Part shown: positions 51,201-52,304 of the stretch, piece by piece
Numbering within the stretch: position 1 is the first letter of the stretch
Layout of the letters: each line of letters begins with the position of its first letter
Source of the DNA: Streptomyces sp. Q6
GTDB taxonomy: Bacteria; Actinomycetota; Actinomycetes; Streptomycetales; Streptomycetaceae
Length of the DNA stretch: 64,000 nucleotides
Assembly: GCF_036967205.1 (NCBI RefSeq)
Contig: NZ_CP146022.1
Span: 5,022,001 to 5,086,000, forward strand
Reading direction: 5' to 3'
Notes under the pieces: generated by a model
What the model saw: the letters and a program-made list of their open reading frames with translations, nothing else
Databases searched by the model: none
Told to the model about the DNA's origin: nothing
Translations under genes and position numbers: made by a program

Positions 51201-51713
51201 TCAGACAGTGACCCCGTCGACGGCGTCGACCTCGTCCGCCACCGCGCAGACGGCGCTGTGCATCGGCATCTCGGTCAGGCCGGGGTAGTACACGTGGAGG
51301 CTGACGGCCGGTTCGAGGGAGTCGTTCACGACCTCGTGGACGTAGCCGGGCGCGAACACGCGCTGCGCGCCGGGGGAGAGGGCGAGGCCGCCGCGTTCCG
51401 TACGCTCCGTCAGTTCGCCCTCCAGGAGCGTCAGTACGCCGGAGGAGCGGCCGTGGTCGTGCGGTCCGCTGCCCTGGCCGGGCACCCAGGACAGCAGCCA
51501 CACCTCGTAGCCGGGGCCGGTGCGCAGCCGGTGGTACCAGCGCGAGGTGGCGTCGTACTCGACGAGGTGCTCCCACTGGGAGCGGTCGGCGGCGATGGCG
51601 CGGGCCAGGCCCACGAACTCGGCCACGGTCTCCGGGTGTTCCCGGGCGGGCTGGAGCAGGTGGGGTACTTCGAGGATGTCGCCGGCGATCTGGAGGTCGC
51701 TGTCGCTGTTCAT
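51201..51713 (-). CDS. Cysteine dioxygenase family protein
   Basis: 170 residues, cupin fold. The iron ligands are the two His of GSGPHDHGRSSGVLTLLEG (in part) and the His of YVHEVVND. LRTGPGYEVWLLSW and SLHVYYPGL complete the bacterial CDO pattern. It oxidises L-cysteine to cysteine sulfinate with O2 and Fe(II); a thiol other than Cys (for example mercaptopropionate) is possible in this family. It is preceded by a leaderless poly-Cys ORF (51837-51929), which points to control by cysteine supply. GAGGA lies 11 bases before the ATG. Confidence 0.9.
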   Translation of the reverse strand: MNSDSDLQIAGDILEVPHLLQPAREHPETVAEFVGLARAIAADRSQWEHLVEYDATSRWYHRLRTGPGYEVWLLSWVPGQGSGPHDHGRSSGVLTLLEGELTERTERGGLALSPGAQRVFAPGYVHEVVNDSLEPAVSLHVYYPGLTEMPMHSAVCAVADEVDAVDGVTV

Positions 51714-51836
51714 CGGGTGTGTGGTTCCTCGGCGGAGAGTGCGGTGCGGAAGCCCTGGTCAGGGGCAAAGGGCCGTACAGAAGAGGAGAGCGTGGAGAAA
51801 CGCGGTGAAGCGGTCGGAGCCCGCAGGCTCAACGAC

Positions 51837-51929
51837 TCAACAGCCGGAACAGCAACAGCTGTGGTGCGCGCGGGCAGCGGAGACGGACCCGGCGGTGCGG
51901 GACGTCGACGGTGCCAAGTTCGCGAGCAT
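51837..51929 (-). CDS. Poly-cysteine leader peptide upstream of cysteine dioxygenase
   Basis: A 30-codon ORF from the ATG at 51929: begins MLANLAPSTSRTAGS and ends ARAHHSCCCSGC then TGA. Five of the last... Cys residues near the end: CCC plus a final Cys, four in the last six residues, after two His. It lies 123 bp before the cysteine dioxygenase start. The upstream TTGACA-N17-TGTCCT ends seven bases before the ATG, so the mRNA would be leaderless. Leaderless poly-Cys ORFs acting as cysteine-responsive attenuators are known in mycobacteria. A short hairpin GAGCC-cgca-GGCTC (51817-51830) begins just past the stop. Confidence 0.7.
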   Translation of the reverse strand: MLANLAPSTSRTAGSVSAARAHHSCCCSGC

Positions 51930-51936
51930 GCCCACC

Positions 51937-51965
51937 AGGACACCGGTTCATGCCTGAGCTGTCAA
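51937..51965 (-). promoter_or_regulatory. Promoter of the poly-Cys leader / cysteine dioxygenase transcript
   Basis: On the minus strand a consensus TTGACA (51965-51960), a 17-bp spacer and TGTCCT (51942-51937) are followed by 7 bp and the leader ATG. The -35 is perfect and the -10 keeps the first and last T. Confidence 0.6.
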
Positions 51966-52304
51966 CTCGCTGTCCGGATTGTGGGATATGTTTCACCTCA
52001 TCCGGTATCTCTCTCAGGCGAAAGGTTTGTGCAGGGCCTGAGCCGGACATGTGGCGCATCGACCCGGTGCGCAAACGCCGTTGCGATCCCGTGATCCGAC
52101 TGTGATCCGGTTCGCTTCCGTAGGCGCACAGGAACGCGATCAAACTCCGCGGCGTCCTTCCTTGTAGTGGTTTGCAGCGAGGGAAGTGGGGGCTGGCCCT
52201 CCAGATGGGCCGCTGGCAAGTGTCACGGTTTTTGCCGATTTGAACACTTTCCGCATAGCCTTGGTTCCGCAGAGTGAATAAGGGGCCCAATAGCAGATCT
52301 CGGC
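51966..52304. other. Intergenic region upstream of whiB
   Basis: About 340 bp with no supported gene. Base composition is less GC-rich toward the right (52215-52300). Developmentally regulated whiB promoters with long upstream control regions are known in Streptomyces, so this stretch probably holds regulator sites, but none could be named from sequence alone. Confidence 0.4.

Follow-up and report, generated by a model that had tools for sequence, protein, structure and literature searches.

The cysteine dioxygenase (CDO) gene of Streptomyces sp. Q6 is preceded by a short, leaderless-type open reading frame (ORF) that ends in a run of cysteine codons. This leader ORF is real, occurs in 17/17 genera of its family, Streptomyces included, and prefers UGU as its Cys codon. 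We propose that it acts in cis as a ribosome-read cysteine sensor that would turn CDO on when charged tRNA-Cys is low, a reading to which we assign a probability of roughly 57%.

A poly-Cys leader ORF upstream of cysteine dioxygenase

The window analysed here is a stretch of 64,000 nt (contig NZ_CP146022.1, positions 5,022,001 to 5,086,000). On its minus strand a conserved upstream block, TTGACA, TGTCCT, an ATG, the leader ORF, a linker, the CDO gene and then cofD follow in that order, with whiB divergent from the locus (Table 1). The first-pass annotation of the window had described a perfect −35 element placed to start RNA on the ATG, a 30-codon ORF ending HHSCCCSGC and CDO as the downstream target, and we recovered each of these elements, the ORF reaching its stop codon at 51837. 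With 36 nt between TTGACA and the ATG, an RNA start at the usual distance would fall on the ATG, and from this promoter geometry we infer that transcription starts at or near it. A sigma-70 consensus scan of 51650–52050 reported no promoter. The −10 region conforms to TSTCCT in place of TANNNT across 121 loci, a possible sign that the promoter depends on an activator or on a different sigma factor.

The leader alone, among the 432 ORF ends inspected across the window, has at least four Cys in its last eight codons, and it is the only Cys-rich one of the three window ORFs of up to 80 codons with an ATG 36 or 37 nt after TTGAC. The peptide found no match in NCBIfam (E up to 10), Pfam (E up to 1) or Rfam (E up to 1).

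Judged from its sequence, the downstream gene is a type I cysteine dioxygenase, with a CDO_I profile match, three His ligands, an Arg60 equivalent and an S-H-Y triad. The residue equivalence to rat CDO (for example, Arg60) is one that we assume. H85, H87, H126, R62 and S138-H140-Y142 are kept in 130/130 Streptomyces CDO orthologues, and the active-site residues agree with solved CDO structures. CDO matches occur in 121/121 genomes of the Streptomyces family, spanning 17 genera; the best 80 of 572 loci related to the query are 82–94% identical to it and all from Streptomyces.

Table 1 Features of the leader and CDO locus in window coordinates
Feature	Position	Strand	Description
Leaderless-type leader ORF	51837..51929	minus	30 codons plus stop, MLANLAPSTSRTAGSVSAARAHHSCCCSGC; from the ORF listing
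Cys run TGT TGC TGT TCC GGC TGT	51840..51857	minus	From the sequence; proposed sensing codons
−35 element TTGACA	51960..51965	minus	36 nt from its first T to the A of the ATG (51929)
−10 region TGTCCT	51937..51942	minus	From base frequencies over 121 loci; consensus TSTCCT, not TANNNT
C-rich, G-poor linker	51714..51836	minus	123 nt, 44% C, 23% G; candidate Rho-loading region
CDO start region GAACAGCGACAGC	51699..51711	minus	13-nt complementarity (one G-U) to leader bases 51859–51847
Cysteine dioxygenase gene	51201..51713	minus	170 aa; GAGGAA before ATG; Pfam CDO_I, 71 bits
Conserved block AAACCTTTC ... ACCGGATGAGGTGAAACAT	51988..52028	minus	Upstream of the promoter; candidate transcription-factor site

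Conservation of the leader

The first-pass annotation had likened the ORF to leaderless poly-Cys ORFs of mycobacteria and named conservation of the Cys run upstream of CDO in Streptomyces as a check. The run is conserved, and both model matches and promoter-defined ORFs support a leaderless-type poly-Cys ORF before CDO. A leader model built from sequence only matched 273/291 Streptomyces genomes (E up to 0.01), a count by model score alone, with ORF intactness not verified match by match. Seven of the 18 genomes without a match still have a Cys-rich ORF (three of these short, with three Cys), eight have lost it and three have no usable orthologous locus. The ORF occupies the same place in 30/30 of the loci closest by CDO, and when these 30 ORFs are aligned, internal length changes come in threes; linker length is free to vary. 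In other genera of the family the ORF was present in 38/40 loci, covering all 16 sampled genera; of the two negative loci, one is interrupted where its contig ends and the other is one of a pair of CDO copies in its genome.

In 121 individually checked loci, all with an ORF in the same place and a Cys run, the spacing from TTGAC to the start was 36 nt in 65, 37 nt in 55 and 35 nt in one, in a search that admitted wider distances with a preference for 33–39 nt. Membership of this set was conditioned on at least three Cys; a promoter-defined test, which took any ORF with an ATG 36 or 37 nt after TTGAC, dropped that condition. Such an ORF was found in 83/91 and 79/79 loci of two Streptomyces sets, which may share species, and in 36/38 loci of other genera, where the ORF of the two failing loci starts with GTG or lies at a 35-nt spacing. 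All 198/198 promoter-defined ORFs carry at least three Cys among their last 12 codons (mean 5.1 in the 83 and 5.5 in the 79 from Streptomyces, 4.1 in the 36 from other genera), and the other two frames average 0.0–0.4 and never reach three: Cys is selected in frame. The Streptomyces loci are a non-random sample, made up of the 30 closest by CDO, 40 more divergent ones and 21 with no or a weak model match, plus the 79. The 121-locus and promoter-defined counts leave out one of two CDO copies in a genome, which has no ORF (L158), a locus at a contig end (L183), a truncated one (L365) and L219–L227 (paralogues, contig edges or N runs).

Peptide bodies diverge widely (MPATTAPSATHARGYRSAVQARCCCCCSSC; MSEQRAVTRSLHGEFRRVSGALCCCRCS; MSEFASPRSGSALRPAVNFCCRLCSCCI), the Cys-rich end persists, and the number and spacing of Cys differ among genera. 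Three loci (L202, L203 and L204) have a short leader variant with only three Cys (MSDPWPYRPSEECPSCCSR or MSGPWPYRPSEECPSCCSR), possibly a step towards loss. Outside the family, none of 52 CDO-upstream loci of the same class combines at least three Cys with the promoter spacing; two have NF042934-like leaders and six have Cys-rich ORFs lacking the spacing. A 21-base pattern search across 392 genomes was discarded as too noisy for counting.

The leader ORF is missing from 8/91 Streptomyces loci, which suggests that it can be shed. All eight retain TTGAC, seven as TTGACA and one as TTGACG, 63–137 nt upstream of the CDO match. In 6/8 the distance is 63–89 nt, so that most of the linker is gone, and in the other two about 100 nt are left; only 4/121 linkers contain TTGAC. 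Because the motif outlives the leader, the promoter most likely belongs to CDO. Within 130 nt before TTGAC, AAACCTTTC occurs in 79/83 Streptomyces loci, 19/38 loci of other genera and 6/8 leader-lost loci, and the block in which it lies may be the site of a regulator.

Codon choice and what the ORF encodes

Cys codons of the leader are UGU in 457/625 cases, compared with 20/204 in 45 long, GC3-rich window ORFs, and UGU is the majority Cys codon in 16/17 genera. Other NNY codons of the leader end in C (C:T counts of 148:3 for His, 42:1 for Asn, 80:0 for Phe, 21:1 for Asp and 205:7 for AGY Ser), so the UGU preference is specific to Cys. The tRNA-Cys anticodon, GCA, reads UGU by wobble. We had expected pN/pS to back a coded peptide; its value of 0.84–0.91 did not fall below that of the wrong frames (0.82–0.83), with no measurable purifying selection on the peptide body. 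Retention of Cys and of UGU without selection on the peptide argues for a decoding sensor over a functional peptide. A peptide that acts itself, such as a Cys-rich metal- or redox-binding microprotein, would suit the many Cys, the occasional His and the adjoining gene for an iron enzyme, but we consider it highly improbable given the pN/pS values, the variation in Cys number and spacing between genera and the keeping of a particular codon beyond mere Cys. That the ORF is a chance one without function has in its favour that it is short and missing from eight loci, yet an in-frame Cys run in every promoter-defined ORF and conservation across 17 genera make this practically negligible.

The ORF might also be only the trace of a conserved RNA or DNA element, with CUGU repeats that pair with the CDO start or are bound by a protein and with translation irrelevant. 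In many Streptomyces loci the Cys run is complementary to CDO codons 1–6 over up to 13–16 nt, and AGC or AGT serves for Ser within the run. Pairing of the run with the CDO start looked strong in RNAduplex, in a permissive scan; it exceeded mismatched partners and synonymous shuffles in two Streptomyces clades only, and modestly, with values below 0.05 in 3/34 and 7/39 loci for leader shuffles and in 16/34 and 20/39 for CDO shuffles. Outside Streptomyces a leader's own run and CDO pair no better than mismatched partners, yet in-frame Cys is found in 36/36 promoter-defined ORFs there, and the indels in threes among the 30 aligned ORFs also tell against an untranslated element, which we regard as quite improbable. 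Pairing of the run with CDO would at most be an extra confined to certain clades. One clade shows a small hairpin spanning the stop codon; compensatory changes were few among the 32 sequences compared, a set that omitted the window's own locus and L004, both poorer fits.

The linker and RNA folding

The linker is consistently rich in C and poor in G, averaging 47.5% C and 23.8% G over 120 linkers. An excess of C over G of at least 0.15 occurs in 113/120 linkers (one short linker omitted), compared with 3.8% of 1,022 window tiles and 2/26 control upstream regions of window genes. No intrinsic terminator was found between leader and CDO in the window, and candidates across the loci were weak and confined to 20/121, with no consistent terminator. 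A C-rich linker free of intrinsic terminators makes Rho-dependent attenuation the likeliest output. Mycobacterial cys leaders share this lack of conserved terminator hairpins and a proposal of Rho, for which the source's own rut-motif prediction was "rather weak" (excerpt of PMC1262725).

When 100 loci were folded, openness of the Shine-Dalgarno sequence mostly stayed the same whether the ribosome sat at the first Cys or at the stop. Changes above 0.1 with the ribosome at the first Cys made it less open in 15 loci and more open in three, which disfavours simple release of the Shine-Dalgarno sequence by stalling. Loci in which the CDO start or Shine-Dalgarno sequence was not clear were left out (21/121 from folding, 7/121 from the pairing tests).

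Relation to other leaders

Leaderless poly-Cys small-ORF attenuators were reportedly described in mycobacteria by Canestrari et al. in 2020. They share with the CDO leader a run of Cys codons, a sulfur gene downstream and, as its promoter spacing suggests, a leaderless geometry; they precede genes for cysteine acquisition, whereas the window leader precedes a cysteine-oxidising enzyme, and the latter further differs in its atypical −10 and in being unmatched by NCBIfam leader models. The uORFC-8-2 of cysS in Rhodobacterales is likewise a short upstream ORF with Cys codons in tandem, but UGC dominates there, together with two stems and a U run like that of a terminator, in contrast to the UGU of the CDO leader, where no terminator was found (excerpt of PMC8632094). 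Streptomyces itself has short leaderless leader peptides in trpL1, leuL and metL, and the table of eight Streptomyces leader peptides in the same source includes none for cysteine and none upstream of CDO (excerpt of PMC8079986). In S. lividans, metL precedes metNIQ and is classed there as methionine-dependent; its last residues are RCMCRRMCAF, and it is possibly a cysteine leader. Among the titles and abstract openings listed in searches of mostly open-access literature, none described a leader ORF ahead of CDO, which is weak evidence of novelty.

The NF042934 leaders (cis_reg_atten), with their relatives Ms4527A and Ms5788A, are like the CDO leader in having Cys near the end, UGU and sulfur genes downstream. 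The motif HVDLxRxASAxC of NF042934 is absent from the window ORF, and none of the three models matched the window peptide, one Streptomyces version or ten same-locus leaders. Some CDO leaders of other genera (SLHVELRRAASALC) look related to NF042934 by eye, a likeness without a model score. In the host genome NF042934 has 22 matches, of which we used 13, nine above the curated cut-off and four below (L040, L041, L042 and L044), setting aside one inside a long ORF (L043) and eight others with E of 0.78 or worse. Leaders above the cut-off are followed by genes for a sulfatase, a cysteine synthase (behind a small ORF), the paralogous canonical CDO, an SsuA-like protein, a family 5 solute-binding protein, an ABC permease, a rhodanese-like protein and two alkanesulfonate-monooxygenase-like proteins (one 0.8 kb away), and those below it by genes for TauD, a sulfite/nitrite-reductase-like protein, a dicarboxylate-type transporter and a flavin-reductase-like protein; several of these identities are likenesses scoring below those families' own cut-offs. 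The dicarboxylate-type transporter, after a weak NF042934-type leader, may be a transporter of cystine or a sulfur compound.

The motif Cys is UGU in 13/13 of these leaders, and a C-rich stretch follows the stop in 8/13. Across the class, NF042934 matched in 89/118 genomes. Its motif Cys could be assigned in 28 of 29 top-scoring loci, drawn from 15 families, and was UGU in 28/28; of the remaining 63 Cys codons counted 48 were UGC. The two kinds of Cys leader are linked by three loci of one family (L373, L375 and L376, family f4), in which the NF042934 motif is combined with a poly-Cys run and the leader ends GCCCCCCSC or GCCCCCSC.

Direction of control

The first-pass annotation had suggested reversed logic, with high Cys-tRNA favouring expression of an enzyme that removes cysteine. 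From gene order we take SCO3035 to be the S. coelicolor counterpart of the window CDO and SCO5772 that of the paralogous CDO. SCO3035, named in the literature searched only in PMC4991794, rose 6.5-fold in S. coelicolor treated with H2O2 (PMC4991794, Table 1, excerpt). Rising with it were SCO6094-6102, SCO4164-4165, SCO2910-2912, SCO5772 and metN, the list including sulfate-assimilation genes and cysM (excerpt of PMC4991794); SCO5772 is termed a putative cysteine dioxygenase elsewhere (PMC3087709). SenR binds upstream of SCO6102 in an electrophoretic mobility shift assay (EMSA; excerpt of PMC4991794); transcriptional control alone may therefore account for the response to H2O2. On feather medium two CDO genes of S. 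shaoguanensis, either of which may be the orthologue of the window CDO, stayed basal to 48 h and then rose 21.7- and 6.4-fold at 96 h, as broth cystine rose; cysD/NC/C/H were down at 24–48 h and raised to a variable extent at 96 h, and cysM was unchanged (excerpt of PMC12763843). In SCUT-3 grown on feather compared with LB, cdo1 was up 50-fold and cdo2 8-fold (excerpt of PMC7181669). Because feathers supply cystine, the feather-medium data fit either sign. The excerpt of PMC7693968 held no CDO expression data. Taken as correlations only, the S. coelicolor and S. shaoguanensis data lean towards the sign known from acquisition genes.

Under reversed control, abundant charged tRNA-Cys would speed the ribosome through the Cys run and raise CDO expression, so that excess cysteine is disposed of. 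This makes physiological sense, and a cysteine-consuming enzyme switched on when cysteine is short is paradoxical. Strong CDO expression on a cystine source speaks for reversal, rising cysteine might account for the co-induction with cys genes, and a stalled ribosome tends to close the Shine-Dalgarno sequence; this folding tendency and the unchanged cysM lowered our estimate for the favoured reading and raised that for reversal. Against it, where expression of cys genes is reported, as in the excerpts for the two Streptomyces transcriptomes, CDO and sulfate-assimilation genes rise together; the paralogous CDO of the host genome has an NF042934 Cys leader of its own, the type found at sulfur-acquisition genes; and no sign-inverting anatomy was found at the leader. 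The reversal suggested by the first-pass annotation is unsupported by the transcriptomes and disfavoured by the paralogue, and we judge it unlikely.

We therefore favour a sensor that would switch CDO on at low charged tRNA-Cys. RNA would start at or near the leader ATG and be translated immediately. With ample charged tRNA-Cys the ribosome would pass the UGU/UGC run and release at UGA, and the naked, C-rich linker would let Rho end transcription ahead of CDO. In Streptomyces the Cys run, once free, might also pair with the CDO start. With charged tRNA-Cys scarce, the ribosome would dwell on the run beside the stop, covering the linker entry and keeping the run unpaired, and CDO would be made. 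CDO would then be wired alongside the sulfur-acquisition genes, not opposite to them.

Significance

An amino-acid-degrading enzyme would stand under a type of leader known for acquisition genes, which makes the role of bacterial CDO directly testable. A rule of UGU and not just Cys can be tested by synonymous change and could aid automated leader finding. More tentatively, Cys leaders of actinomycetes may in general sense through wobble-read UGU, with CDO on at low charged tRNA-Cys and serving salvage or thiol stress, by way of sulfinate and sulfite, and not disposal. In Streptomyces the leader may add a second layer to the joint induction of sulfur genes, beside the control by SenR proposed in PMC4991794 (excerpt).
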